Virus record (IMG/VR): IMGVR_UViG_3300025853_000145
Span: 1 to 48,779 of that record
Length of the DNA stretch: 48,779 nt
Source of the DNA: a virus
Direction: 5' to 3' (one strand)
Part shown: in pieces, positions 1 through 48,779 of the stretch
Numbering within the stretch: position 1 is the stretch's first letter
Layout: every line of letters begins with the position of its first letter
Translations under genes and position numbers: made by a program
Notes under the pieces: generated by a model
The model's database searches: none
What the model was told of the DNA's origin: nothing
The model's input: the letters and a program-made list of their open reading frames with translations, nothing else

Positions 1-293
1 ATGATATAAAAGTAAAGACACCAACTGGATTTCAATCATTTAGTGGAATACAAAAAGTTTTCAAACCATTTTATCATTGGATTATTTTTGATGATGGAAG
101 TGAAATAAAATGTTCCGATAACCATTCATTCGGTAGTGAGAAGGTGAAGGCATCTTCTTTGAGACTTGATGATATTATTCAAGGTAAAAAAGTTGTTTAT
201 AATGAAATAGTTGAGAAAGGAATATACCTATATGATTTATTGGATGTAGGAGAAGAAAACCTATACATTACCAATAAAATAATTTCACATAAT
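1..293 (+). mobile_element. C-terminal portion of an intein inserted in gp17
   Basis: About 97 residues precede the gp17 extein and have the C-terminal architecture of a Hint-domain intein. They show a TPTG...SG strand pair, a block-B-like DNHSF histidine near 126-131, a block-F-like stretch DLLDVGEENLYITN, and a block-G end IISHN followed by Cys+1 at 294-296. There is no room for a homing endonuclease domain in the visible part. The sequence strongly resembles what I remember of the AceL-TerL metagenomic intein, which is naturally split near residue 25. The visible part would correspond to its C-fragment. Splicing would join the upstream ATPase half to CEFLGS. Confidence 0.88.
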
Positions 294-1166
294 TGCGAGT
301 TTTTAGGTTCTGTTGATACTCTGATTGCTCCGAGTAAACTTAAAAGTCTTGTTTACGAAAATCCAATTCAAAAAAGTGCAAGTCTGGATATTTATGAAAG
401 TGTAATCAGTGGTCATGATTATATTATTACTGTTGACGTAGCGAGAGGAGTTGGTAATGATTATTCTGCATTTGTAGTTGTTGATATTTCAAAGTTCCCA
501 CATAAACTTGTTGCAAAGTATAGAAATAATGAGATTAAACCAATGTTATTTCCAAATGTAATTTGGGAGGTAGCAAAAAAATATAACGATGCATTTATTT
601 TATGTGAAGTAAATGATATTGGGGATCAGGTAGCAAGTATTCTTCAGTATGATCTTGAGTATCAGAATTTGTTAATGTGTTCTATGAGGGGTAGAGCAGG
701 ACAGATTGTCGGTCAGGGTTTCTCTGGTAAAAAGACACAGTTAGGTGTCAAGATGTCTAAGACTGTGAAGAAAGTTGGATCTCTCAATCTCAAAACAATG
801 ATTGAGGAAAGTAAACTTTTACTATGTGATTATGATATCATATCGGAACTTACGACTTTCATTCAGAAAAAAAATTCTTTTGAAGCTGAAGAAGGTTGTA
901 ATGATGACTTGGCTATGTGTTTAGTCATCTATGCATGGTTAGTTGCTCAGGACTATTTTAAGGAACTCACTGACCAGGATGTCAGAAAAAGAATTTACGA
1001 GGAACAAAAAAATCAAATTGACCAAGATATGGCACCTTTTGGTTTTCTAAATGACGGTTTAGATGATACTACATTTGTTGATGCTGATGGTGACAGATGG
1101 ACGACTTCATCTACGATGGATGAATACGGAAATACCGCAGGTGGTTGGACTCTCTGGAATTACTAA
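1..1166 (+). CDS. gp17: Terminase large subunit gp17, C-terminal part, 5' end outside window
   Basis: The DNA-packaging motor ATPase/nuclease; only the C-terminal end of an intein plus the nuclease half of gp17 is in the window. The reading frame is open from base 3 to the TAA at 1164-1166, with no in-frame ATG before base 143, so the true start is upstream. After the intein boundary at 293/294 the extein begins CEFLGS. The RNase H-like nuclease acidic residues are visible: Asp at 435-437 (TVDVARG), Glu at 606-608 (CEVND) and an Asp pair near 903-908 (NDDLA). The ATPase half (Walker A and B) must lie upstream. The stop overlaps the next ATG by one base. Identification as T4-type gp17 is firm from motifs and from synteny with gp18-gp23. 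Whether the upstream half is the same gene or a separate one cannot be seen here. Confidence 0.93.
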   Translation, partial: DIKVKTPTGFQSFSGIQKVFKPFYHWIIFDDGSEIKCSDNHSFGSEKVKASSLRLDDIIQGKKVVYNEIVEKGIYLYDLLDVGEENLYITNKIISHNCEFLGSVDTLIAPSKLKSLVYENPIQKSASLDIYESVISGHDYIITVDVARGVGNDYSAFVVVDISKFPHKLVAKYRNNEIKPMLFPNVIWEVAKKYNDAFILCEVNDIGDQVASILQYDLEYQNLLMCSMRGRAGQIVGQGFSGKKTQLGVKMSKTVKKVGSLNLKTMIEESKLLLCDYDIISELTTFIQKKNSFEAEEGCNDDLAMCLVIYAWLVAQDYFKELTDQDVRKRIYEEQKNQIDQDMAPFGFLNDGLDDTTFVDADGDRWTTSSTMDEYGNTAGGWTLWNY

Positions 1167-1387
1167 TGGATTTAGACAAACAAATAAAATTAGGTCATCT
1201 TCTACTCAATGATAGGAAATGTAGAACATGTGGAGAAGAAAAAAATTTAATTGATGGTTTTTATCGAATTCGTAAAGATAGAGGACCAGTAGCATCTTCT
1301 TACTCCTATGAGTGTAAAGAATGTACAAAGAAGAGGATAATACAAAATAAAAAGTGTAAGAATGATTGGCTTTATCCCGATTGGTAG
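1166..1387 (+). CDS. Small Cys4 zinc-ribbon-like protein
   Basis: A 73-residue protein starting at the ATG that overlaps the gp17 stop (TAATG). It has two CxxC pairs, CRTC at about residues 19-22 and CKEC near residue 53, the usual layout of a small zinc ribbon. The same arrangement (CxxCGExK..FY..CKxC) forms the N-terminal zinc module of many phage HNH endonucleases, but no HNH residues follow before the stop. It could be a remnant of such an endonuclease or a genuine small gene kept between gp17 and gp18. No specific function can be assigned. Confidence 0.75.
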   Translation: MDLDKQIKLGHLLLNDRKCRTCGEEKNLIDGFYRIRKDRGPVASSYSYECKECTKKRIIQNKKCKNDWLYPDW

Positions 1388-1424
1388 GTTCACGTCACAT
1401 TTCCCCACTGAAAGGTCTATTTTT

Positions 1425-1440
1425 TCTAAATATTTTTAGA
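1425..1440 (+). promoter_or_regulatory. Possible late promoter CTAAATA inside a hairpin, upstream of gp18
   Basis: CTAAATA at 1426-1432 resembles the T4-type late motif (T)ATAAATA with one mismatch. It lies inside a perfect 6-bp inverted repeat TCTAAA-TATT-TTTAGA. A good ribosome binding site (AAAGGAG) follows just before the gp18 ATG at 1468. Confidence 0.45.
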
Positions 1441-1467
1441 TAAACTGAGATCCTAAAGGAGAAAAAC

Positions 1468-3672
1468 ATGGCAACTCCTCAATTATCTCCAGGCGTACTC
1501 GTCAGAGAGGTTGATTTAACAGTTGGTAGAGGCAATAATGTCCTCGATAACATTGGTGCTATTGCTGGTCCCTTCAGAATTGGTCCTGTTGACGAACCAA
1601 TTCAAGTTTCCAATCAGCAAGAGTTAATCAATACTTTTGGTACTCCCCTTGGAACTGACAGACAGTACGAATACTGGATGAGTGCTTCTTCCTTCCTTTC
1701 ATATGGAGGGGTTCTTAAGGTTGTAAGAACAAACGACGATAATCTTGTAAACGGTAATGCTGGTGTTGGAGTCGCTTCGACTGGAACACTTAACATCACA
1801 AACTATGATGATTACGAAGCTAATCACACTAACGACACTACTTATTACTGGGCAGCTAGAAACCCTGGCTCTTGGTCAAACTCAATGAGAGTTTGTGTCA
1901 TTGACGACGCAGCTGACCAAATTATTGGTATCACAACAGATAGTCTTGCTGGTTTAGGTGCTACTGTTGGTTATGGTGTTACATCACCACTTTCAAGTAC
2001 TGTTCTTCCTGGTGCTGGTACAACATCAACATTTGATGGATATCTGAAAGGTATTATTACTGGTGTTAGTACTGATTCTACAAATAGTAATAGTACTATT
2101 AACGTTAAAATTCTTTCCAGAGTTTCGACAGCTGGTACAGAATATCCAATTACTTATAGGGAGAATGATACAAATTCTTCTTTTGAAGTTAGTGACTCAC
2201 TGACATTCTGGACAAACGCCGGAGCAAACGCCGGAACAGCTACTGTAGCTACTGAAAAAGATTGGTATAACGAACAAACTCTTGGTCTTACCAATTCAAC
2301 TGTTTATTGGAAGTCAATCGCTCCTAGACCAATCTCCTCAAATTACTCCACTTCTAGAAGTGGTAGAGGTGATTCGATTCACGTTGTAGTTTATGACGAC
2401 ACTGGATCAATTACAGGTATTCAAGGTAATATCTTAGAGAAGCATTTGTTCCTCTCCAAAGCAGTTGATGCTGGGGCGAACGCAGATAATCCAACGAAGA
2501 TCTACTATAAGGACTTTGTTGCAAGAAATTCTACACAAATCTTCCCTGGATATAGTCCATCAAATGCAGCTGATTCATACTGGAATACTGAACCTCTTGC
2601 TGTTGGTTTCTCCACTAACTATGTGAAGTATACAACCGCTGAAGGTCTTTGGGGTCAAACAGCTCAAGATACTGTATTCAGTGCTATTGGTAATAAATCT
2701 TATGATTTTGGTGGTGGTAAAGACTATTCTGGAAATGTTCCAGAAATTGGTGGAACCGGTGGAATGGAGGCAACTTTAGGTAATCTAGCTACCTCATATA
2801 GATTGTTCTCAAATAAAGATGATGAAGCTGTTGATTATCTGATAATGGGCCCTGGACTTTCAAACGAGAGTGAATCACAAGCTAAGGCAAATCTCTTGAT
2901 TTCTATAGCTGAAGGTAGAAAGGACTGTGTTGCTACAGTTGGTCCACACAGAGCTAACATCGTCAATGTTACAAATTCAACAACTCAAACAACAAATCTT
3001 CTGAGATTCTTTAGTCCATTACAATCTTCTTCATACGCTGTATTTGATAGTGGATATAAGTATACTTATGACAGATTTAACAATGAGTTCCGTTATATTC
3101 CAACTAACGGTGACGTTGCTGGTCTGATGGTTAGAACTGGAATTCTGGCTTATCCTTGGTTCTCACCAGCTGGATTACAAAGAGGTGTTCTGAATAACGC
3201 TGTTAAACTGGCTTATAATCCAGATAAGTCTCAAAGAGATCTTCTCTATCCAGCAAGAGTTAATTCTATCATTAACAGAAAAGGTTCTGGAGTGGTTCTC
3301 TTCGGAGATAAGACAGCTCTTGGTTATTCTTCGGCATTTGACAGAATCAATGTTAGAAGATTGTTCTTGACTGTTGAACAGGCTCTCGAAGAGGCAGCTC
3401 AAACTCAACTCTTCGAACTGAATGATGAGAACACAAGAGCAAACTTTGTTAACATCGTTGAACCTTACCTCCGTGATGTTCAGGCTAAGAGAGGTCTTTA
3501 CGACTTCTTAGTTGTTTGTGACACTTCAAACAATACTCCTGAAGTTATTGATAATAATGAATTTAGAGCTGATATTTACTTGAAGCCAACCAAGTCTATC
3601 AATTATATTACATTGACCTTCGTAGCAACTCGTACTGGTGTTGCATTCGAAGAAGTTGTTGGTACTGTTTGA
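1468..3672 (+). CDS. gp18: Tail sheath protein gp18
   Basis: Contractile tail sheath subunit, 734 residues, slightly longer than T4 gp18 (659). It opens with the typical sheath N-terminus LSPGVLVREVD, and the C-terminal region carries the conserved core (QRDLLYPARVNSI, GVVLFGDKTALG, IEPYLRDVQ-like). The variable glycine/threonine-rich middle (about residues 100-400) corresponds to the surface-exposed insertion domains of sheath proteins. AAAGGAG lies 6 bases upstream of the ATG. The gene sits directly before the tube gene gp19, as in all T4-like genomes, and is probably expressed late. Confidence 0.96.
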   Translation: MATPQLSPGVLVREVDLTVGRGNNVLDNIGAIAGPFRIGPVDEPIQVSNQQELINTFGTPLGTDRQYEYWMSASSFLSYGGVLKVVRTNDDNLVNGNAGVGVASTGTLNITNYDDYEANHTNDTTYYWAARNPGSWSNSMRVCVIDDAADQIIGITTDSLAGLGATVGYGVTSPLSSTVLPGAGTTSTFDGYLKGIITGVSTDSTNSNSTINVKILSRVSTAGTEYPITYRENDTNSSFEVSDSLTFWTNAGANAGTATVATEKDWYNEQTLGLTNSTVYWKSIAPRPISSNYSTSRSGRGDSIHVVVYDDTGSITGIQGNILEKHLFLSKAVDAGANADNPTKIYYKDFVARNSTQIFPGYSPSNAADSYWNTEPLAVGFSTNYVKYTTAEGLWGQTAQDTVFSAIGNKSYDFGGGKDYSGNVPEIGGTGGMEATLGNLATSYRLFSNKDDEAVDYLIMGPGLSNESESQAKANLLISIAEGRKDCVATVGPHRANIVNVTNSTTQTTNLLRFFSPLQSSSYAVFDSGYKYTYDRFNNEFRYIPTNGDVAGLMVRTGILAYPWFSPAGLQRGVLNNAVKLAYNPDKSQRDLLYPARVNSIINRKGSGVVLFGDKTALGYSSAFDRINVRRLFLTVEQALEEAAQTQLFELNDENTRANFVNIVEPYLRDVQAKRGLYDFLVVCDTSNNTPEVIDNNEFRADIYLKPTKSINYITLTFVATRTGVAFEEVVGTV

Positions 3673-3709
3673 TTTTTTAAATTATAAAAACATTTAGGAG
3701 GAACTAACA

Positions 3710-4294
3710 ATGCCAAACGCAAGTCTCGCAGATTTTAAATCAAAACTGGTGGGCGGTGGCGCCCGCCCCAATTTATTTGAGGTTTCAATTCCAGCTCTTC
3801 CAGAAGCTGCTCAAACATCAATCAATGATGAAACTTTCAAGTTCTTATGTAAAGCTTCTAATCTTCCAGCTTCAAATATCGCTGAAGTCATTGTTCCTTT
3901 TAGAGGAAGAAACTTCAAAGTTGCTGGTGACAGAACAGTTGATCCATGGACTGTAACTGTTATCAACGATGAAAACTTCGAGTTTAGAAGTGTATTTGAA
4001 CAGTGGGCAAATGGATTGGGTAAACTTGATAATGGTACTGGTGCTACTGAACCAGCTTCATATATGACCAATGCTTATGTTAGACAACTTGGTAGAGGTG
4101 ATAGCCCCTCTGCTAGAACCAATGGTTCAAACATGGTCACTCTTAGAGAGTACAAGTTTGTTGACATCTGGCCAAGTTCAGTTAGTGAAATTTCTGTAAG
4201 TTATGATGAAGGAAACGCCATTGAACAGTTCGATGTAACCTTCCAGGTACAAACCTTCGAAGTTTCTGGTGGTGAAGGACCAACAATATCCTGA
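3710..4294 (+). CDS. gp19: Tail tube protein gp19
   Basis: Inner tail tube subunit of the contractile tail, 194 residues (T4 gp19 is 163). It contains features of the T4 tube fold: LADFKSKLVGGGARPNLFEVSIP at the N-terminus, the FLCKASNLPASNIAEVIVPFRGR strand-loop, and the C-terminal LREYKFVDIWPSSVSEI...EQFDVTFQVQ region. It follows gp18 by 37 bases. The start has a strong AGGAGG (3696-3701) spaced 8 bases. That site lies in the loop of a small TTAG/CTAA hairpin. Confidence 0.96.
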   Translation: MPNASLADFKSKLVGGGARPNLFEVSIPALPEAAQTSINDETFKFLCKASNLPASNIAEVIVPFRGRNFKVAGDRTVDPWTVTVINDENFEFRSVFEQWANGLGKLDNGTGATEPASYMTNAYVRQLGRGDSPSARTNGSNMVTLREYKFVDIWPSSVSEISVSYDEGNAIEQFDVTFQVQTFEVSGGEGPTIS

Positions 4295-4305
4295 TATCTA
4301 ATCTC

Positions 4306-4330
4306 ATAAATAACTAGAAGGACTTCTAGT
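4306..4330 (+). promoter_or_regulatory. Late promoter ATAAATA followed by a perfect palindrome, upstream of portal gene
   Basis: ATAAATA at 4306-4312 matches the T4-type late promoter. It is immediately followed by an 18-bp perfect palindrome, ACTAGAAG|GA|CTTCTAGT at 4313-4330. There is no T-run after the hairpin, so it is not a simple terminator. Transcripts started at the late promoter would begin inside the palindrome. Read-through transcripts from gp18-gp19 would carry the whole hairpin with AGGA at its tip. Confidence 0.6.
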
Positions 4331-4339
4331 ATATTTGAA

Positions 4340-6001
4340 ATGGCGAGATTATTTGGTTTTTCAATTGAAGATAACGAAAAAACGCCACCTAGTGTAGTTT
4401 CTCCGGTCCCTCCTAACAATCAGGATGGATCGGAGAATTATGTTAGCAGTGGTTTTTTTGGTAGTTATGTAGATATTGAAGGCGTTTATAGAAATGAATC
4501 CGATTTAATTAGAAGATATAGAACTATGGCACTCTATCCAGAGTGTGATAGTGCTATTGAAGATATTGTTAATGAAGCTATTGTATCAGATACGAATGAT
4601 TCCCCAGTTCAAATTGAACTTTCCAATTTAAATGCAAGTGATAATATCAAAAAGAAAGTAAGAGAAGAATTTAGATATATTCTTGAACTTCTTGATTTTG
4701 ATAAGAAGTCTCATGAAATTTTTAGAAATTGGTATATTGACGGAAGACTTTATTATAATAAAGTAATCGATCAAAAAAATCCTCAGGCTGGTATTCAAGA
4801 ACTGAGATATATTGACGCGTCAAAGATACGTTATGTTCGTCAAATTAAAAAATCTGGAAAAGACAGTATTCAGTCAGCACAAAGTCAATATCAGAATAGT
4901 GATCAATTAGGTTATAACTTTCCAGAAATAGAAGAATATTTCATCTATACCCCTAATACTGGTGGTGGTGTATCTAGTTTTGGTTCTTCCAAAAAAGGAG
5001 TCAAGATGACTCGTGATTCTATCACTTATTGCACCTCTGGTCTAGTAGATAGAAATAAGGGTTTGACTCTTTCTTGGTTACATAAAGCAATTAAACCAAT
5101 CAATCAACTAATGATGATTGAGGATTCTCTTGTCATTTACAGATTATCAAGAGCACCAGAAAGAAGAATTTTTTATATTGATGTTGGTAATCTTCCTAAG
5201 ATCAAAGCGGAACAATATCTTCGTGATGTAATGACACGTTATAGAAATAAACTTGTCTATGATGCAAACACTGGAGAAGTTCGTGATGATAAGAAGTTTA
5301 TGTCCATGATGGAAGACTTCTGGCTTCCTAGAAGAGAAGGTGGTAGAGGAACAGAAATTACTACACTTCCTGGTGGACAAAATCTCGGAGAAATTACTGA
5401 TATCAATTATTTCCAGAGAAAGTTATATAGAGCTTTAAATGTTCCTGAAACTAGAATTCAAGGAGAGGGTGGATTTTCACTTGGTCGTTCTTCAGAAATT
5501 TTGAGAGATGAGATTAAATTCTCCAAGTTTGTTGGAAGAATGAGGAAGAGATTTTCTTCAATGTTCAATGATATGTTGAAGACTCAACTTCTACTGAAAA
5601 ACATTGTAACCCCTGAAGATTGGGAGTATATGGCAGATCATATTCAATATGATTTTGTTTATGATAATCACTTCGCAGAACTTAAGAACGCGGAATTGAC
5701 AACTGAAAGACTCAATCTTGCTCAACTTGCAGAACCTTATGTGGGTAAATATTATTCACAGGATTATTTGAGAAGAAATATTCTTAGACAAACTGACGAG
5801 GAAATTATTGAACAGGATATGTTAATTGAAAAAGAAATTGAGAACGGAATAATTCCTGATCCAAATGCATTGGTTGATTCGGAAGGTGAAATGCCTCCTG
5901 AGACATCTGCTCCCACTTCATCTACATCAGATGCAATTCAAGCACCTACTTCACCTAAAGATCCTGAACCCCCAGAAACTCCAGCTGGTGGTGAAATCTA
6001 A
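4340..6001 (+). CDS. gp20: Portal vertex protein gp20
   Basis: Dodecameric portal through which DNA is packaged and ejected, 553 residues (T4 gp20 is 524). Recognisable conserved portal segments include RYRTMALYPECDSAIEDIVNEAI, LYYNKVID, ELRYIDASKIRYVR, YRLSRAPERRIFYIDVGNLPK and FWLPRREGGRGTEI. The last of these is the region commonly used as the cyanophage g20 marker. The C-terminal tail (about residues 500-553) is Pro/Ser/Thr-rich and probably disordered. There is no good Shine-Dalgarno close to the ATG; the nearest AGGA is in the hairpin loop 17 bases upstream. Confidence 0.97.
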   Translation: MARLFGFSIEDNEKTPPSVVSPVPPNNQDGSENYVSSGFFGSYVDIEGVYRNESDLIRRYRTMALYPECDSAIEDIVNEAIVSDTNDSPVQIELSNLNASDNIKKKVREEFRYILELLDFDKKSHEIFRNWYIDGRLYYNKVIDQKNPQAGIQELRYIDASKIRYVRQIKKSGKDSIQSAQSQYQNSDQLGYNFPEIEEYFIYTPNTGGGVSSFGSSKKGVKMTRDSITYCTSGLVDRNKGLTLSWLHKAIKPINQLMMIEDSLVIYRLSRAPERRIFYIDVGNLPKIKAEQYLRDVMTRYRNKLVYDANTGEVRDDKKFMSMMEDFWLPRREGGRGTEITTLPGGQNLGEITDINYFQRKLYRALNVPETRIQGEGGFSLGRSSEILRDEIKFSKFVGRMRKRFSSMFNDMLKTQLLLKNIVTPEDWEYMADHIQYDFVYDNHFAELKNAELTTERLNLAQLAEPYVGKYYSQDYLRRNILRQTDEEIIEQDMLIEKEIENGIIPDPNALVDSEGEMPPETSAPTSSTSDAIQAPTSPKDPEPPETPAGGEI

Positions 6002-14195: not shown

Positions 14196-14726
14196 ATGGC
14201 TAATCAATATCCTGCTGAGAGTAAAAAGAACAGAGACCAAGCAATATCAGAGGGGAAGAAGAGATACCTCTCTGCCACTCCATGTAAGAAATGTGGAACA
14301 TATGAGAGGTATGTTTCAACTTATGGTTGCTGTAAGTGTGTGGTGGAAGCAGGATTAAAGAAACTTGCTGATAAGGAGTTGATGGCACCTTATAGAACAA
14401 AGGAGAATCAATTAAAGAAACAAAAAGCCTGGAGGGAAAAGAACTACGAAAAGTATCAACAACAGTGGTTGAGGGTACCCAAAGAGAAAGTAAACGCCAG
14501 AGCAGCAAATAGGAGAGCGAAGGTGAGAAACCAAACTCCAGACCTGACTGAAGCAGAAAAGGATGTTATACTGGAGTTATATGCTGAAGCAAAACGATTG
14601 ACTGAAGAGACAGGCATTCCCTATGAGGTCGATCATATTATTCCAATATGTAAGGGCGGACTTCATCACCCAGACAATCTACAAGTAATTACTCAAAAAG
14701 AAAATAGGAAAAAAGGAGGAAAATGA
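14196..14726 (+). CDS. HNH homing endonuclease (free-standing)
   Basis: 176 residues. The N-terminal zinc module has CxxC pairs (CKKC, then CCKC) at about residues 29-50. A highly basic linker follows (KKQKAWREKNYEKYQQQW...). A C-terminal HNH domain has the motif VDHIIPICKGGLHHPDNLQVIT near residues 144-165 (catalytic His in DHI, Asn in DNL). It is inserted between the gene after gp55 and gp47. Its last four bases overlap the gp47 start (ATGA), so it is inserted tightly without disrupting the neighbour. It is likely a mobile selfish gene. Confidence 0.93.
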   Translation: MANQYPAESKKNRDQAISEGKKRYLSATPCKKCGTYERYVSTYGCCKCVVEAGLKKLADKELMAPYRTKENQLKKQKAWREKNYEKYQQQWLRVPKEKVNARAANRRAKVRNQTPDLTEAEKDVILELYAEAKRLTEETGIPYEVDHIIPICKGGLHHPDNLQVITQKENRKKGGK

Positions 14727-23300: not shown

Positions 23301-23879
23301 TTATCTGTGTATAACTCTTTTAGGTCTAATTCTATACCAATCTTTATGTTTGGGACTATCAATTCTTTTCCTTACAGATTTTGGTGTTCCTAAGGCTCTG
23401 TAGTATTCTTCTGCTTTTTTTATTGATTGAAACTCTTTTCCTTCACATACTACTGGATACGAGTTGGCCTTTGAAACTTTTTCTCTTGATGATTTAGGTT
23501 GAGTTTTCCCCAACATTCCATATGTTGCATATTCTTCTCTTGGTTTTCTTTTATGATATTCTTTCATTGATTGAATAAAGTTTGGGGAGTTTGATGTATC
23601 TCCTCCCTCTCCACCTTTAGTTAGATTGTAATGAGGTTGTAGTTTTTCAATCCAATACTTTTCTCTATCATCAAGTTCTAATACGGGAACTTCACATTCT
23701 ACAATTTTTATGGTAAAATTATTTTTCCCATATTTCCTAATTGCCTTGTATAAGGGAGTGTTACTTCTTTTGTATGATGACTCGTAGAGATGATTTCTAA
23801 ACCTCTCTTCAATAGTTTTTGTAGTTTTTCCAATATAAAAATTACCATTGATTTCATTGGTTATTTTGTATATAATCAT
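23301..23879 (-). CDS. GIY-YIG homing endonuclease
   Basis: 192 residues, the only minus-strand gene in the window. The catalytic domain opens with IIYKITNEINGNFYIGKT (a YKI / YIG form of GIY-YIG), followed by the conserved Arg in EERFRNH and the Glu in the DREKYWIEKL region. NUMOD3-like repeats (SMKEYHKRKP, GMLGKTQPKSSREKVSKA) and a C-terminal NUMOD1-like helix-turn-helix (FQSIKKAEEYYRALG) would bind DNA. This is the Seg-type architecture of free-standing T4 homing enzymes. It is inserted antiparallel between the AbrB-like gene and gp44, leaving both intact. Confidence 0.93.
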   Translation of the reverse strand: MIIYKITNEINGNFYIGKTTKTIEERFRNHLYESSYKRSNTPLYKAIRKYGKNNFTIKIVECEVPVLELDDREKYWIEKLQPHYNLTKGGEGGDTSNSPNFIQSMKEYHKRKPREEYATYGMLGKTQPKSSREKVSKANSYPVVCEGKEFQSIKKAEEYYRALGTPKSVRKRIDSPKHKDWYRIRPKRVIHR

Positions 23880-23901
23880 TATTGAAACTTACAGACCCTT
23901 T

Positions 23902-23908
23902 TATTTAT
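23902..23908 (-). promoter_or_regulatory. Late promoter motif on the minus strand for the GIY-YIG gene
   Basis: Read on the minus strand the sequence is TATAATAAATA, containing ATAAATA at 23902-23908 and an overlapping TATAAT. It lies about 23 bases upstream of the GIY-YIG ATG at 23879. This suggests an independent promoter that also faces away from gp44. Confidence 0.5.
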
Positions 23909-23914
23909 TATAAC

Positions 23915-24871
23915 ATGTCTCCTATTGATAGAAAACATTTCGTCTGGTGTGAATCTTATCGCCCACAAACAATTGAAGAATGTATCCTTCCAGAGGGTAT
24001 TAAAAAGACCTTCAAGGACTTCCTAACACAAGGAGAGGTCCCAAATCTCCTCTTATCCGGTCCTCCTGGATGTGGTAAAACTACCGTAGCTAAAGCACTT
24101 TGTAATGAACTTGGAGTAGATGTTTATGTCATTAATGGATCCGACGAGGGTAGATTCATCGATACTGTCAGAAACAATGCGAAGAACTTCGCTTCGACCG
24201 TATCACTTTCATCAGATGCTAAACACAAAGTCATCATCATTGATGAGGCAGATAACACAACCCCGGATGTACAACTCGCCCTTAGGGCGTTTACAGAGGA
24301 ATTTGTTGGTAATTGTAGATTCGTCTTTACATGTAACTACAAAAACAAAATCATTGAACCTCTCCACTCTCGTTGTGCCGTCATTGACTTCTCCCTCAAA
24401 GGAAAGGAACGACAAGAACTTGCAGCGAAGTTTTTCAACCGTCTCCGGTCTATACTTGAGACGGAGAGTGTGGAATATGATCCAAAAGTTCTTGTAGAAC
24501 TTATCAATAAACACTTCCCAGATTGGAGACGTGTTCTTAACGAGTGTCAAAGATATTCTGTTAGTGGTAAAATTGACACTGGAATTCTAGCAACCTTTAG
24601 TGATGTAAAAACAGATGATCTCTTTAAAAACCTCAAAGAAAAAAACTTTTCTGAAGTACGGAAGTGGGTCGTTAATAACTTGGATAATGATCCTTCTTTA
24701 CTTCTTCGCCGCATTTACGATGGTTGTTATAATGCCCTGGACGGCCCTGGTATTGCTGCTGCTGTCCTTATTATTGCTAAGTATCAGTATCAAATTGCGT
24801 TCGTCGCAGATCAAGAAATTAATCTTCTGGCGGCGTTGACGGAAATTATGGTTGAATGTAATTTTAAATGA
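23915..24871 (+). CDS. gp44: Clamp loader large subunit gp44
   Basis: AAA+ ATPase that opens and loads the gp45 clamp with gp62; 318 residues from the ATG at 23915 (T4 gp44 is 319). Walker A LLSGPPGCGKTT lies at residues 46-57 and Walker B IIIDEADN near 107. The clamp-loader SRC motif (HSRCA) is present, and a C-terminal collar follows. An upstream in-frame TTG at 23882 exists, but the 23915 ATG gives the expected length and the SPIDRKHFVWCESYRPQTI start. Confidence 0.96.
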   Translation: MSPIDRKHFVWCESYRPQTIEECILPEGIKKTFKDFLTQGEVPNLLLSGPPGCGKTTVAKALCNELGVDVYVINGSDEGRFIDTVRNNAKNFASTVSLSSDAKHKVIIIDEADNTTPDVQLALRAFTEEFVGNCRFVFTCNYKNKIIEPLHSRCAVIDFSLKGKERQELAAKFFNRLRSILETESVEYDPKVLVELINKHFPDWRRVLNECQRYSVSGKIDTGILATFSDVKTDDLFKNLKEKNFSEVRKWVVNNLDNDPSLLLRRIYDGCYNALDGPGIAAAVLIIAKYQYQIAFVADQEINLLAALTEIMVECNFK

Positions 24872-27752: not shown

Positions 27753-27951
27753 AGAAGTATCAACTGATCTCGGAGAACCTGATTGTAAATTGATAGAACC
27801 CTTCATTTTAAATCAATCCGATCTTTCTCTTTCTCCTTGGATGGTTGATTATTCAACTCAAAACACATTCATGATTCATTCGGATAAGATCTTGACGATT
27901 GCAGATCCAAACGGTAAACTTAAAGACAAGTATGAAAGCCTAGTTGAATAA
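27694..27951 (+). CDS. Sm-like small protein (copy 4 of 4)
   Basis: 85 residues. LKLLVLTNNQILITQIEEV, then IEPFILNQ, LSPWMVD, FMIHSDKILTIADPNGKLKDKYESL. The Gly of the usual G-E-x-[VI] motif is Asn here. The start cannot be moved downstream without losing the first strand, so the 59-base overlap with the previous gene is probably real. It ends on the first base of the DNA polymerase ATG (TAATG). Confidence 0.8.
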   Translation: MKNLKLLVLTNNQILITQIEEVSTDLGEPDCKLIEPFILNQSDLSLSPWMVDYSTQNTFMIHSDKILTIADPNGKLKDKYESLVE

Positions 27952-29414
27952 TGCGTTATTATACGAATGTCCAGATGGTTGGTAACAACTTTTTGGTCCG
28001 TGGATATGAAAATGGGAAAAGCGTCATCTTCAAAGAGGAATTTCAACCAACTCTTTATGTGAAATCAAATAAAGAAACTGGATGGAAAACTCTTGATGGT
28101 GAGAATGTAGAACCTATTCAACCAGGTACAGTGAAGGATTGTAGGGAGTTTTATAAGAAGTATGAAGATGTAGATGGATTCAAAATCTATGGTAATGAAA
28201 GGTACATCTACCAATACATTTCTGATAAGTATCCTGAAAATGAGATCAAGTTTGATATTAAAAAAATCAATCTTGTGACCATTGATATTGAGGTCAAATC
28301 TGAACAAGGATTTCCTGATCCGGATTCTTGTTCAGAGGAGATGCTCACTATCTCCATGCAGGATTATGCCACTAAAAAAATTAAGACCTGGGGAAGAAAA
28401 CCTTATACTCCTACTCAGGATAATGTAACTTATTATCATTATGATGATGAAGTTGATATGCTTAATTCTTTCATCTATCATTGGAATAAAAATCCCCCTG
28501 AGGTTGTGACTGGTTGGAATTGTCGTCTTTATGATATTCCATATCTTTGTGGCCGTATTGACAGAATTATGGGACAGAAGAAACTTAAACTTCTTTCACC
28601 ATGGGGACTGGTAAGTCATGAAGAGATCTATATCTCGGGTAGAAAGTTTAATGTTTATGATATTGCTGGCACAACTACTCTAGATTACCTGGAGTTGTAT
28701 AAGAAGTTTACTTATACAAATCAAGAGAGTTATCGACTAGACTATATTGCTAATATTGAACTCGGTCAGAAGAAGTTGGATCACTCCGAGTTTGATACTT
28801 TCAAAGACTTCTATAACGGGAACTGGAAGAAGTTTGTAGATTACAACATTATTGACGTGGAACTTGTTGATCGACTGGAAGACAAGTTGAGATTGATTGA
28901 ACTTGCTATCACAATGGCATATGATGGTAAAGTCAACTACACTGATGTGATGTTTCAGGTTAGATTGTGGGATACCATTATCTACAATTATTTGAAAAAG
29001 AAGAAAATTGTAGTTCCCCCAAAGGATAGAAGTGAGAAAGATTCTAAGTTTGCTGGAGCTTATGTCAAAGAACCTAAACCAGGTCTTTATGATTATGTGG
29101 TTTCTTTTGACCTTAACTCCCTATATCCTCACTTAATCATGCAATACAATATCTCACCAGAAACACTTTTGGATGAGAAACATCCAAGTGTGAGTGTGGA
29201 TAAACTTCTTAATGAAGAAGTTACATTTGAGATGTATAAGGACTATGCGGTTTGTGCTAATGGTGCAATGTATAGAAAGGATGAAAGGGGATTTCTACCT
29301 GAATTGATGGAGAAGATGTATGCTGAACGTAAGGCCTTTAAGAAGGAGATGTTGAAGAGTAAACAGAAACTAGTTGATATTGAATCGGAGATGAAGAGAA
29401 GGGGTCTTAAGTAA
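27951..29414 (+). CDS. gp43: DNA polymerase gp43, N-terminal fragment (exonuclease and motif A)
   Basis: Family B replicative polymerase, first half only; 487 residues of an expected 830-900. 3'-5' exonuclease motifs are intact: DIE near 110-112 (Exo I), NCRLYD (Exo II) and YNIIDVELV (Exo III). Polymerase motif A DLNSLYP lies near residue 388. The frame stops (TAA at 29412-29414) after the helical segment KQKLVDIESEMKRRGLK, between the palm and fingers parts. Motifs B and C are in a separate gene at 29955-31133, beyond an HNH gene. The two products must associate, or the RNA must be spliced, to give an active enzyme. Confidence 0.94.
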   Translation: MRYYTNVQMVGNNFLVRGYENGKSVIFKEEFQPTLYVKSNKETGWKTLDGENVEPIQPGTVKDCREFYKKYEDVDGFKIYGNERYIYQYISDKYPENEIKFDIKKINLVTIDIEVKSEQGFPDPDSCSEEMLTISMQDYATKKIKTWGRKPYTPTQDNVTYYHYDDEVDMLNSFIYHWNKNPPEVVTGWNCRLYDIPYLCGRIDRIMGQKKLKLLSPWGLVSHEEIYISGRKFNVYDIAGTTTLDYLELYKKFTYTNQESYRLDYIANIELGQKKLDHSEFDTFKDFYNGNWKKFVDYNIIDVELVDRLEDKLRLIELAITMAYDGKVNYTDVMFQVRLWDTIIYNYLKKKKIVVPPKDRSEKDSKFAGAYVKEPKPGLYDYVVSFDLNSLYPHLIMQYNISPETLLDEKHPSVSVDKLLNEEVTFEMYKDYAVCANGAMYRKDERGFLPELMEKMYAERKAFKKEMLKSKQKLVDIESEMKRRGLK

Positions 29415-29441
29415 ACACCTCCCCTATAAAATATCATATAA

Positions 29442-29449
29442 TATAAATA
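29442..29449 (+). promoter_or_regulatory. Late promoter TATAAATA upstream of the HNH gene in gp43
   Basis: Perfect late motif 20 bases before the HNH ATG at 29469. It gives the inserted endonuclease its own late expression, different from the early polymerase operon. Confidence 0.65.
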
Positions 29450-29468
29450 ATACTTTATTGGGGGTATT

Positions 29469-29936
29469 ATGTTAGAAGATTTGACCGGACAAACATTTGG
29501 TAGGCTTACTGCTCTTTCTGTTGAAAGGAGAGGGAGACGCACATATTGGTTGTGTGAATGTTCCTGTGGAAATGAGAAATCTGTAAGGAGGGAGAAGTTA
29601 AAAAATGGAACAACTATATCCTGTGGTTGTGCTAGAAAAGAAAGAAACCATCAACATACTAAAACAAAACTTTATGGTAGGTGGAACTCTATGGTAATGA
29701 GATGCCATAACCCCAATAGTGTTGGTTATCATAAGTATGGGGCAAAAGGTATAAAAGTTTGTGATAGGTGGAGAACCTTTATAAACTTTTATGAGGATAT
29801 GGGTGAACCACCAGAAGGTATGACACTTGAAAGATTGGATAGTAGTGGTGATTATTGTCCGGAGAATGTTGTGTGGGCGGATTATGTAACACAGAACAAT
29901 AATCGTCCTTCATTTAATAAGAAAAATGTGGTATAA
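29469..29936 (+). CDS. HNH homing endonuclease between the two gp43 genes
   Basis: 155 residues. N-terminal zinc module LTGQTFGRLTAL...WLCECSCGN...GTTISCGC, then the WNSMVMRCHNPNSVGYHKYGAKGIKVCDRWRTFINFYEDMG block. The HNH-type core ends in LERLDSSGDYCPENVVWADYVTQNNNR. This matches the LxRIDNxGxYxPxNCRW group of phage homing enzymes. It sits exactly at the break between the exonuclease/motif A part and the motif B/C part of DNA polymerase, the usual behaviour of an invader of a conserved gene. Confidence 0.92.
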   Translation: MLEDLTGQTFGRLTALSVERRGRRTYWLCECSCGNEKSVRREKLKNGTTISCGCARKERNHQHTKTKLYGRWNSMVMRCHNPNSVGYHKYGAKGIKVCDRWRTFINFYEDMGEPPEGMTLERLDSSGDYCPENVVWADYVTQNNNRPSFNKKNVV

Positions 29937-29937
29937 T
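29929..29937 (+). promoter_or_regulatory. Extended -10 promoter before gp43 C-terminal fragment
   Basis: TGG-TATAAT (TATAAT at 29932-29937), an extended -10, overlaps the end of the HNH gene and lies 17 bases before the GTG start of the second polymerase gene. No -35 is visible. It would let the C-terminal fragment be transcribed on its own. Confidence 0.5.
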
Positions 29938-29954
29938 TTAATGAGAGATGCTGT

Positions 29955-31133
29955 GTGCCGGAGGTTGTTATTGGGTATTTAATCGGAGGTGCAGGAGAAG
30001 GTGCACAAAAGGAGATAGTGGTATCAGATAAGGACTATTCTAAATTGACTGATACACAACTTCTGAAACTTCGTGATCAGACTGTGAAAGATATTGCAAA
30101 GTTCAATAACTTTCAAATGGTTAGAAAGATTACACTGAACTCAGCTTATGGTGCCGTTGGTAATCAGTACTTCAGATATTACAAACTTGCAAATGCAGAA
30201 GCTATCACACTGAGTGGTCAGGTATCTATTCGGTGGATTGAAAACCGTATGAATGGTTATCTAAATAATCTATTACAAACGGAGGGGATTGATTATGTCA
30301 TTGCATCTGACACTGATTCAATCTATCTTAATTTTGGACCTCTTGTTAATAAATTTTTTAGTAATAAGCTTGACGATAAGAATAAGATTGTTACGATCAT
30401 TGACCAGATCTGTAAGGACAAGTTGGAACCGTTCATCGATTCCTCTTATCAAAATCTTGCGTCGTATGTAAATGCATATGATCAGAAGATGCAGATGAAA
30501 CGGGAGAACATTGCAGACCGTGGAATCTGGACAGCAAAGAAACGATACATTCTTAATGTTTGGGATAGTGAGGGAGTTAGATATGAAGATCCTAAACTTA
30601 AGATTATGGGTATAGAAGCTGTAAAGTCTTCTACTCCAGCTCCATGTAGGTCAATGATTAAAGACGCTCTCAAACTTATGATGAAAGCGACTGAAGATGA
30701 TTTGATTGATTTTATTGAAAATTGTAGAACAAAATTCAAAAACCTTTCTCCGGAAGAAATTGCATTTCCTCGAATGGTTTCTGATGTAAATAAGTATAAG
30801 TCTCACTCTTCAATTTATATAAAAGGAACACCGATTCATGCTAGAGGTGCTCTTCTTTTCAATCATTATATTAGAGAAAAGAATCTTCAAAACAAATATT
30901 CTTTCATCAACAATGGTGAAAAGATTAAGTTTGTTTACCTGAAAAAAGCTAACCCTATCAGAGAGAATGTGATTTCTTTCATCTCAGACTTTCCTGTTGA
31001 AACTGGTCTTGACAAATACATTGATTACGAACTACAATTTGAAAAGGCATTCTTAGAACCAGTCAAGACTATTCTTGATTCTATTGGGTGGAACGTTGAA
31101 AAAACTGTAAACTTAGAATTATTTTTTGGATGA
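29955..31133 (+). CDS. gp43: DNA polymerase gp43, C-terminal fragment (motifs B and C, thumb)
   Basis: 392 residues from a GTG preceded by GAGAG. The frame is closed upstream by TAA at 29934-29936 and has no ATG until about residue 55. Fingers motif B KITLNSAYGAVGN lies near residues 59-71, and motif C SDTDSIY near 118. Then come the thumb and the C-terminal clamp-binding peptide LELFF. Residues 1-25 (PEVVIGYLIGGAGEGAQKEI) do not look like normal polymerase and may be newly recruited. The stop overlaps uvsX. Confidence 0.92.
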   Translation: MPEVVIGYLIGGAGEGAQKEIVVSDKDYSKLTDTQLLKLRDQTVKDIAKFNNFQMVRKITLNSAYGAVGNQYFRYYKLANAEAITLSGQVSIRWIENRMNGYLNNLLQTEGIDYVIASDTDSIYLNFGPLVNKFFSNKLDDKNKIVTIIDQICKDKLEPFIDSSYQNLASYVNAYDQKMQMKRENIADRGIWTAKKRYILNVWDSEGVRYEDPKLKIMGIEAVKSSTPAPCRSMIKDALKLMMKATEDDLIDFIENCRTKFKNLSPEEIAFPRMVSDVNKYKSHSSIYIKGTPIHARGALLFNHYIREKNLQNKYSFINNGEKIKFVYLKKANPIRENVISFISDFPVETGLDKYIDYELQFEKAFLEPVKTILDSIGWNVEKTVNLELFFG

Positions 31134-46386: not shown

Positions 46387-47379
46387 ATGGATTATATTGA
46401 TGTAAAGTACATCAATTTGATTTCCTCAAGACTTTCAAAATTCAAAAAGATTAAACCATATCTTTATAATTTTCGATGCCCTATTTGTGGAGATTCTAAA
46501 AAGAATAAAAATAAATCAAGAGGTTTTCTTTATAGGGTAAAGAATAATAGTAATTATAAGTGCCACAATTGTGGTATCAGTATTTCTTTCAATTCCTTTC
46601 TTAAAGATCTAGATACTGAAATTCATAAACAATATATTTTTGAGAAGTTTAAAGAAGGACATACCGGAAAAAACTTTGTGACTGAAACACCAGAAAGTAT
46701 TTTTGAACAAGTTAAAACCTCAAAACCAACTTTCACAACAAAAGTGAAAATTGAACTACCAAAAGCTTTTGATGTAGATGTATCTAAAAGGTATTTGGAA
46801 TCAAGAGCAATTTTTGATGGTGAATTTTATTATGTAAAAAATTTTAAAGAGTTTGTTAATTCTATTAAACCAGGAACATTTGATTCTACCAAGTATGGTG
46901 AAGAAAGAATTGTAATTCCACTTATTAGAAATAGGAAACTTATCGGAGTTCAGGGAAGAGCACTATCTTCTAACCCTGTTAAATACTTAACCATCATGTT
47001 GGATGAAGATGAACCAAAAATCTATGGGATTGATCGAGTTGATAAAGAACTTCCCGTCTATATCGTTGAAGGCCCCTTTGACAGCACTTTCCTCCCTAAT
47101 AGTGTGGCTTTGTGTGGTAGTGACGGTCAAGTTAGTGATCTTGAAGGAAGCGACAAAGTTTTTGTATATGATAACGAACCCCGTAATAAAGAAATTGTTA
47201 ATCGAATTGAACAGTGTATTGAACGGGGAGAAAGTGTCGTCATCTGGCCATCAAACATAAATCAAAAAGACATTAATGATATGATCTTGGGTGGACATAA
47301 TGTTCAAAATTTGGTAAAATTGAATACTTACAAAGGATTGGAAGCAAAACTAAAATTTACTATTTGGAAAAAGGTATGA
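46387..47379 (+). CDS. gp61: DNA primase gp61
   Basis: Makes RNA primers with helicase gp41; 330 residues (T4 gp61 is 342). An N-terminal zinc ribbon has CPIC at about 31-34 and CHNC at about 59-62. The TOPRIM domain has the Glu motif YIVEGPFDSTFLPN near 225-238 and the acidic VYDNEPRNKE near 262-271. All expected catalytic positions are present. It overlaps nrdA by four bases (ATGA). Confidence 0.95.
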   Translation: MDYIDVKYINLISSRLSKFKKIKPYLYNFRCPICGDSKKNKNKSRGFLYRVKNNSNYKCHNCGISISFNSFLKDLDTEIHKQYIFEKFKEGHTGKNFVTETPESIFEQVKTSKPTFTTKVKIELPKAFDVDVSKRYLESRAIFDGEFYYVKNFKEFVNSIKPGTFDSTKYGEERIVIPLIRNRKLIGVQGRALSSNPVKYLTIMLDEDEPKIYGIDRVDKELPVYIVEGPFDSTFLPNSVALCGSDGQVSDLEGSDKVFVYDNEPRNKEIVNRIEQCIERGESVVIWPSNINQKDINDMILGGHNVQNLVKLNTYKGLEAKLKFTIWKKV

Positions 47380-48779
47380 CTAACGGTACAAAAGTTGTTA
47401 AGAGAAATGGTAATATTGAGTCTCTTGACCTGGATAAGATGCACCTGATGGTTGCAGAGGCTTGTAGGGGTCTTGCAGGGGTCTCTGCAAGTCAAGTGGA
47501 GATGACTTCTGGTATTCAGTTTTATGATGGAATTACCACGAAAGAAATTCAGGAGATCCTGATTAAGAGTGCGAGTGATCTGATTGATCTGGAACATCCA
47601 AATTATCAATATGTTGCTGCTCGACTTCTCTTGTTTTCTCTAAGAAAACAACTTTATGGTGTTATGAGAGATCATCCTTCACTTGTTGATCATATTCAAA
47701 AACTTTGTTATGATCACATTTATGATAAGGAAATATTTTCCAAGTATTCTTTGGAAGAAATTCAAAAGGTAGAAACTTTTATTGATCATGATCGTGACTA
47801 CTTGTTTACATATGCGGGATTACGGCAGGTATCCGATAAATACTTAGTGCAGGATAGGAGCACTGGGGAGGTTTACGAAACTCCTCAGTTCATGTACATC
47901 ATGATTGCTCTGACTATTTTCCAAGAGTATCCTAAGGAGACAAGACTTTCTTACGTTAAGAGGTATTATGACGCAATCTCCAAACACAAACTCAACATCC
48001 CAACACCAATCATGGCAGGGGTCAGAACACCCCTTCGTCAATTTGCATCTTGTGTTCTCGTTGATGTTGATGACTCCCTCGATAGTATCTTTAGCAGTGA
48101 TATGGCTATTGGCAGATACGTCGCACAGAGGGCTGGTATCGGCATTAACGCTGGCAGAATCCGTGGTATCAACAGCAAAATACGAGGTGGCGAGGTACAA
48201 CATACAGGCGTTGTCCCCTTCCTTAAAAAGTTTGAAGCAACTGTCCGATGCTGTACACAGAACGGCATCAGAGGTGGTTCTGCTACAGTTCACTTTCCTA
48301 TCTGGCACAAAGAAATAGAGGACATTCTTGTTCTTAAGAACAACAAAGGTACAGAGGACAACCGAGTTCGTAAACTAGATTATAGTATTCAAATCAGTAA
48401 ACTCTTCTATGAACGTTTCATCCAAAATGGAGAAGTCTCACTCTTCTCTCCACACGACGTTCCTGGTTTGTATGATGCTTTTGGTACTGATCGATTTGAT
48501 GAGTTGTATGTGGGTTTTGAACGAGATGACTCTATTCCGAGAAAGACTATCGGAGCTCAAGAACTCATTCTGGACCTTCTGAAAGAAAGAGCAGAAACAG
48601 GTCGAATTTATATCATGAATATCGATCATTGTAACTCTCACTCCTCCTTTAAGGATAAGGTTGAGATGAGCAACTTATGTGTTGCTGGTAATACAAAGAT
48701 TAAAGTAAGAATTACTACTACTAAAGAAGTTGTTGGCAATACAACAAGCACATATCGTCTTCCTCCCCTTGAAATTGAA
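47376..48779 (+). CDS. nrdA: Ribonucleotide reductase large subunit NrdA, N-terminal part, interrupted by an intein; 3' end outside window
   Basis: Class Ia ribonucleotide reductase catalytic subunit. 434 extein residues are visible, in frame to the window end. An N-terminal ATP-cone-like region (KVVKRNGNIESLDLDKMH) precedes the alpha/beta barrel. The redox cysteine appears in QFASCVLVDVDDS. NIDHCNSHSSFKDKVEMSNL leads to the site of the thiyl-radical cysteine (SNLC, Cys439 in E. coli). At that point the sequence turns into CVAGNTKIKVR, an intein start. The start codon overlaps the gp61 stop. NrdA is common in cyanophages for dNTP supply. Confidence 0.95.
   Translation, partial: MTNGTKVVKRNGNIESLDLDKMHLMVAEACRGLAGVSASQVEMTSGIQFYDGITTKEIQEILIKSASDLIDLEHPNYQYVAARLLLFSLRKQLYGVMRDHPSLVDHIQKLCYDHIYDKEIFSKYSLEEIQKVETFIDHDRDYLFTYAGLRQVSDKYLVQDRSTGEVYETPQFMYIMIALTIFQEYPKETRLSYVKRYYDAISKHKLNIPTPIMAGVRTPLRQFASCVLVDVDDSLDSIFSSDMAIGRYVAQRAGIGINAGRIRGINSKIRGGEVQHTGVVPFLKKFEATVRCCTQNGIRGGSATVHFPIWHKEIEDILVLKNNKGTEDNRVRKLDYSIQISKLFYERFIQNGEVSLFSPHDVPGLYDAFGTDRFDELYVGFERDDSIPRKTIGAQELILDLLKERAETGRIYIMNIDHCNSHSSFKDKVEMSNLCVAGNTKIKVRITTTKEVVGNTTSTYRLPPLEIE
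48678..48779 (+). mobile_element. N-terminal portion of an intein inserted in nrdA
   Basis: After MSNL the frame continues CVAGNTKIKVRITTTKE..., the block-A form of an intein N-terminus (C-x-x-G-[DN]-T-x-[IV]). Normal NrdA would read C-x-E-I at this point. 34 intein residues are visible before the window ends, ending LEIE. The +1 extein residue after the intein would be the catalytic cysteine itself. Confidence 0.85.

Follow-up and report, generated by a model that had tools for sequence, protein, structure and literature searches.

A terminase intein fragment at the start of a marine cyanophage-like virus record and the split cassettes of its relatives

The intein fragment and the terL exon of the window

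The window analysed here is the complete IMG/VR record IMGVR_UViG_3300025853_000145 (48,779 bases), and its first base falls inside an intein of terL (gp17), the gene for the large subunit of the terminase. An open frame of 387 amino acids occupies frame 3 between base 3 and its stop at 1164-1166. This frame (window 3-1166) is very probably the second gene of a two-piece terminase, whose intein DNA would be a mobile cassette. Its features, with vertical bars marking splice junctions, are:

3..293, + strand: C-terminal fragment of the terminase intein (IntC), residues 7-103 of a predicted 103; from the CatC match, alignment A1 and the start in relative L005
288..296, + strand: C-terminal splice junction HN|C (penultimate His, Asn, Cys+1); from the sequence, the family loci and the empty site in L082
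294..1166, + strand: C-exon of terL (gp17), the nuclease half of the large terminase; from PF17289, phrog_2 and identity to cyanophages

Bases 1-2 are part of the codon preceding the visible IntC, of which 97 residues are seen. The fragment ends in SHN, followed by C, and the motifs that an earlier note on this DNA had read as those of an intein (TPTGFQSFSGIQKV, DNHSFG, LYITN and SHN|CEFLGS) were each located in frame 3. The same note had placed the start of the gene upstream of the window, and this was borne out: the earliest in-frame ATG, GTG or TTG is the GTG at 144, so the true IntC gene start lies before base 1. The DNA of L005, identical from window base 1 (MYKVNN-DIKVK), puts the predicted start 6 codons before base 3.

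Residues 98-387 are terminase, as indicated by matches to PF17289 Terminase_6C (Pfam, expect value (E) 4.2e-14) and to phrog_2, terminase large subunit (PHROG, E 1.8e-19), and the C-exon is ~80% identical to those of cultured Synechococcus myoviruses. The window virus is a marine cyanophage-like virus, and the intein interrupts its DNA-packaging motor gene. CEFLGS follows the junction in 140 of 140 family loci. Moreover, the phage L082, 95.4% identical over window 294-2409, carries an empty site that reads ...KIEFE|CEFLGSVD... without insert. The intein junction in the window is exact because L082 reads uninterrupted through FE|CEFLGS, and the insertion site before CEFLGS proposed in the earlier note was thereby confirmed.

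Atypically split inteins serve as protein-engineering tools, and those of terminases were named from environmental sequence. Residues 1-97 of the window frame matched CatC (Protein Data Bank (PDB) entry 6dsl, chain B, residues 2-96) with E 4.8e-48, all other chains giving 0.03 or worse, and the N-terminal fragment (IntN) of a relative matched CatN (6dsl_A, E 9.4e-5). In alignment A1, H41, S95, H96 and N97 are invariant, and the catalytic residues of the window IntC are kept. An AlphaFold2 model of the contiguous intein of another relative, L133 (predicted local distance difference test score 80.9, predicted template modelling score 0.68), had 6dsl chain B as its first PDB match (E 1.5e-11). 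According to the available part of PMC11766414, Cat was designed as the consensus of GOS-TerL and AceL-TerL, and the fragments measure 25 + 104 residues in AceL-TerL, 37 + 115 in GOS-TerL and 30 + 104 in Cat. The window family has the same host protein, Cys1/Cys+1, fold and sequence, with sizes of ~28 + 103, and the visible window fragment shows no difference from these inteins. These results support the assignment of the fragment to the AceL-/GOS-TerL atypically split inteins, judged through the Cat consensus and not through AceL's own sequence. The window itself is a further member of this known split-intein family, and the earlier note, which had likened it to AceL-TerL, was right on the family, the site and the probable endonuclease.

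Split layout and mobility of the cassette

When viral contigs were scanned with the entire window protein, at least 80 loci were kept; among those listed, 10 carried an intein and 70 were uninterrupted, counts that describe the listed matches and are not frequencies. For a census of intein-bearing loci, scans with the intein fragment and with the endonuclease were merged into 140 loci at >70% identity, corresponding to 82 haplotypes. The census left out the window (L001), L092, whose exon is lacking, and all loci with ≤70% identity; its matches did not include L083 or L108. Results showed 65 haplotypes split with a long gap, 3 split without endonuclease, 1 contiguous (L133) and 1 that occurs both with and without endonuclease; the other 12 show no upstream sequence. 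The intein is split in 69 of the 70 haplotypes with visible upstream sequence, L133 being the sole contiguous one. IntN begins with Cys in all 122 N-fragments, although the search pattern required Cys and this is not a free test, and it is 28 or 29 residues long in 120 of the 122 loci, the exceptions being L133 and L234 (37 residues before the stop).

The endonuclease gene that the earlier note had suspected between the intein halves exists in most relatives. Among the 80 loci listed from the fragment scan, the endonuclease-bearing cassette measures 988-995 bases and its open reading frame (ORF) 189 or 191 amino acids, with the exception of L174, whose longest ORF is of 95. The ORFs of L003 and L006 are GIY-YIG endonucleases (PF01541 above the curated cutoff); PF01541 was also above the cutoff in L107 and below it in L106. 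In L003 the stop of the endonuclease ORF (4020-4589) overlaps the start of the IntC gene (from 4582). L006, which carries the fragment closest to that of the window (98.3% at the DNA level), is split around a GIY-YIG ORF. At the level of sequence, the relation to the family, the exact position of the insertion and the arrangement of the relatives' terL in two genes are established. In this layout, the product of the first gene would be the ATPase half of gp17, with an IntN of 28-29 residues that begins with Cys at its end, and that of the second the 103-residue IntC and the gp17 nuclease half. IntN and IntC would associate, excise themselves and join ...FE to CEFLGS..., so that a single gp17 results.

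The possibility of a split intein, raised in the earlier note, holds for the relatives, and we infer the same for the window virus itself. Several observations weigh against this explanation. L133, whose IntC is identical to that of the window in 92 of 97 residues, is contiguous. The N-half of the window virus was not found: a search for exact matches to 31 bases of the L082 exon end returned L082 alone, the L082 N-exon protein had no match in the window record, and a scan of genome contigs with alignment A1 found no relative. Both the window contig and that of its near twin L083 are also cut off within the intein. L100 and L105 were considered as carriers of the N-half and rejected, their contigs ending in L006-type cassettes with the L006 exon instead. 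If the window intein were contiguous like that of L133 (95% identical to the window fragment, ORF 2110-4155 without a stop), terL would be a single gene spliced in cis, and the window edge would hide the difference. This is quite improbable: a contiguous intein occurs in only 1 of the 70 informative haplotypes, L133 alone was returned by the junction-pattern scan of viral contigs described below, and the window intein groups with L122/L123 (support 99/98), L123 being split with an endonuclease, and not with L133.

Comparison of the cassette with its flanks indicated that it moves. The window IntC is 98.3% identical to that of L006 and L005, whereas the next 150 exon bases are 72% and bases 150-800 78% identical; against the empty-site phage L082, the window exon is 99.3% identical over the first 150 bases and 96.6% over 150-800. 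Since the intein is nearly identical to that of L006 while the exon differs by 22-28%, the cassette is mobile. The same pattern could come from an assembly chimera, in which the intein end of a co-occurring phage was joined to a phage with an empty site. The existence of the 95%-identical L082 without insert fits this, and L006, with its near-identical cassette, shares the IMG sample number 3300006874 with L083. On the other hand, L083 also joins the intein directly to the same exon (although it may not be independent of the window), the window IntC differs from L006 and L005 at 5 of 293 positions, and no closer cassette occurs in the 57-row tree described below, where the highest identity is to L123 (=L006), 98%. 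A chimeric join of an L006-like intein to the window exon is therefore left with a very slight probability.

Mobility was also seen across the family. We compared distances among 43 distinct cassettes from 63 loci with a confirmed endonuclease, endonuclease-free loci being left out. An intein distance of ≤4% with an exon distance of ≥12% was found in 17 of 903 pairs, and the reverse (intein ≥12%, exon ≤4%) in 0 of 903. Endonuclease and intein distances correlated with r 0.93 and intein and exon distances with r 0.55, each reached by 0 of 2000 permutations. L130 and L132 have identical intein and endonuclease proteins and exons 23% apart. These data are consistent with a cassette in which the GIY-YIG ORF (HNH in one outgroup lineage) most likely cuts the empty terL site, after which repair would copy IntN, endonuclease and IntC as a single unit. 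The endonucleases of L109 (2069-2635, HNH) and L003 (4020-4586, GIY-YIG) share C-terminal halves that are 48% identical over 101 residues; from their sequences, the catalytic domains look as if exchanged at one site.

Endonuclease loss, a probable re-fusion and the spacer

Endonuclease-free alleles were found in several places. In L125 (=L002), L127 and L129, IntN + IntC (366 bases) are identical to those of the endonuclease-bearing L124 (=L003), and the halves are parted by a single TGA in the same frame; the flanks of L002 and L003 are 98.98% identical over 880 bases and 99.75% over 1977 bases. The ORF was lost elsewhere in the family in L146, L194 and L234 (the last not on the tree), which are still split. 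Read from these alleles, four lineages have lost the endonuclease and remained split.

In L133, one ORF without a stop (2110-4155) contains TerL-N, 25 IntN residues (...IEDLY) and then KVNNNIKVKTPTG..., and a junction-pattern scan of viral contigs for further contiguous forms returned the L133 contig alone. A tree of 57 distinct IntN + IntC DNAs placed L133 with L134, L126, L124 and L131 (94/90, not starred), all split, and an approximately unbiased test rejected a tree in which the other 12 rows of its clade were held together without L133 (p 0.005). In a protein tree with outgroups, all five outgroups fell outside the 52 rows and the position of L133 was not resolved, so that its nesting depends on the DNA tree and the approximately unbiased test. 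Because it is nested among split inteins, L133 looks re-fused; re-fusion of a split intein is the simplest reading of this single contig, and a probable one.

We then analysed the spacer between IntN and the endonuclease ORF, which starts with TGTGAGTTTYTTGGATTATAAATA in most members. The first 14 bases of TGTGAGTTTYTTGGATTATAAATA are similar to those that begin the C-exon (CEFLG), in a different frame. When the first 18 exon bases of each cassette were compared with the whole cassette, the best match fell in this part of the spacer, next to IntN, for 59 of the 62 unique cassettes, and 399 of 12,400 spacer shuffles reached the observed score. The 21-base empty site matched the spacer at 13-17 of 21 positions in eight loci tested. 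With 2000 shuffles of the same 30-base stretch per locus, the score was reached 0 times in L106, 1 in L107, 0 in L109, 12 in L003, 2 in L006, 99 in L007, 5 in L094 and 15 in L104. Since the members are related, these are few independent cases, namely the cyanophage group, L106/L107 (GIY-YIG) and L109 (HNH). Directly after this copy of the homing site stands TATAAATA in 60 of the 62 unique cassettes, 16-21 bases (29 in one) before the endonuclease ORF; the remaining two are L109 and L219. It immediately precedes the copy in L108 and L109, was not seen in the spacers of L106 and L107, and is absent from the spacer of the 4 endonuclease-free cassettes and from L133. We take TATAAATA to be the T4 late promoter sequence, examined here by position alone. 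In the window, 6 of its 8 occurrences lie 16-50 nt before an ORF start, compared to 5.5% of positions; the + strand carries all 8 and the minus strand none. This placement, before ORF starts and on the + strand only, supports its action as a late promoter here.

The combination of a late promoter and a homing-site copy before the endonuclease ORF makes self-repression probable. In the T4 td intron, I-TevI binds an autorepressor operator at a late promoter, 15/20 identical to its homing site, according to the available part of PMC2988022. By analogy, the spacer is probably an operator, forming a regulatory module that precedes the endonuclease ORF, and the endonuclease, like I-TevI, would repress its own expression during the late phase. 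Against this, some members, such as L007 (13/21, 99 of 2000 shuffles), have a weak copy, and in 6 of 8 loci (all but L106 and L109) the site of another locus fits the copy better. That the copy tracks each phage's own exon was not supported within the cyanophage group by the eight-locus comparison. At the spacers of L006 and L003, as at a gap in gp43 of the window, RNA hairpins did no better than shuffles. The carrier in the relatives' cassettes is an intein and not a group I intron, as the CatC and CatN matches show, and an Rfam scan of the window alone gave one tRNA as its sole match and no group I intron.

The spacer motif might instead be a relic, a piece of target sequence brought along when the endonuclease gene entered the intein. 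In all four endonuclease-free lineages, the copy is truncated after TGTGA or TGTGG, and sites of other phages often match the copy as well as the own site. However, the copy adjoins an almost invariant late promoter at the distance given above, its mean pairwise identity is 0.944 compared to 0.875 for the rest of the spacer (55 of 62 cassettes fitting the selection motif), and it recurs in two outgroup lineages (L106/L107 and L109), one with the other nuclease type. We consider a relic possible though rather doubtful. With the operator as the preferred reading, we tentatively propose a self-regulating mobile unit, in which the endonuclease binds the empty terL site and the promoter-side copy, and in which the split can revert, as in L133. 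Bound at the spacer copy, the endonuclease would also tune the terminase C-half through the late promoter. After endonuclease loss, the halves could stay apart or join again, as in L133, into one functional contiguous intein, and the endonuclease-free and re-fused alleles would have arisen later from this cassette. What is new here is the regulatory module together with the probable re-fusion, both from relatives; our literature search was aimed at neither. Together, the empty site (L082), the split form with endonuclease (L003), the split form without it (L002) and the contiguous form (L133) are a natural series of related cassettes, in which the origin, the movement and the reversion of a split intein can be studied directly. 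Should the spacer truly be an operator, homing endonucleases would be autorepressed in inteins as in group I introns.

Other split inteins and further genes of the window

Dassa and colleagues reportedly described, in 2009, fractured genes in which a free-standing endonuclease ORF lies between two split-intein genes; in the relatives of the window, the corresponding ORF combines a GIY-YIG or an HNH catalytic domain with a C-terminal region that both types share. Compared with AceL-TerL, GOS-TerL and Cat as described in the available part of PMC11766414, these relatives differ by endonuclease-free and contiguous alleles and by a promoter- and operator-like spacer. They resemble I-TevI, as far as the available part of PMC2988022 describes it, in having a GIY-YIG ORF in a mobile insert with a late promoter and a homing-site-like sequence just upstream. 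In contrast to that system, the carrier is a split intein instead of a group I intron, and in most members the copy lies beside the promoter and not over it.

Split terL inteins with an endonuclease also occur in the cultured phages Aeromonas PX29, Salmonella SEA1, Yersinia phiR1-RT, Escherichia coli phiS and kaaroe, and Vibrio VP-1 and K469, and the split gp17 intein of PX29 is already annotated as such in GenBank. The recorded host of kaaroe is E. coli K-12 MG1655. The intein fragments of VP-1, SEA1, phiS and K469 are 35-36% identical to the window fragment. The insertion site is DE|CAFI in SEA1, phiS, kaaroe and phiR1-RT, compared to FE|CEFLGS in the window family. The endonuclease is fused to IntN in phiS, VP-1 and K469, unlike the free-standing ORF of the window's relatives; in PX29 it lies within the IntC gene, according to the note in the record, and in SEA1 it is TnsA-like and separate. 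A homing-site copy above background was found in none of the 7 cultured-phage split inteins tested. In the cultured enterobacterial T4-like phages L120, L121, L202 and L237, split inteins divide terL at DE|CAFI, and the middle or the first of the genes is often annotated as a hypothetical protein. The terL of Vibrio phage VP-1 (L116, 1816-4035) is interrupted twice, by a contiguous intein at GK|TT of the ATP-binding site and by a split intein with IntN fused to a GIY-YIG domain. The terL inteins of L106 and L107 have Ser as their first residue (FES|V...) and are followed by CDFVGS, like the Ser1/Cys+1 GOS-TerL kind.

Elsewhere in the window, an endonuclease VII-like ORF (1166-1387, phrog_4723) begins at the terL stop. 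At the other end, nrdA (47364-48779) reads ...SNLC|VAGNTKIKV... to the last base, which looks like an intein start, Pfam detecting ribonucleotide reductase only; together with the IntC at the start, both contig ends would lie in inteins. An HNH-like ORF with Pfam matches below the cutoff lies at 14196-14726, and a GIY-YIG endonuclease ORF on the minus strand (23301-23879) just before the + strand ORF at 23882-24871. The DNA polymerase gene gp43 (27951-31133) is in two ORFs with an ORF of 155 amino acids (29469-29936) between them; the gap gave no intron family match in Rfam. TATAAATA stands 27 bases before the 155-residue ORF, and the best matches of the C part of gp43 are to Synechococcus phages ACG-2014f.
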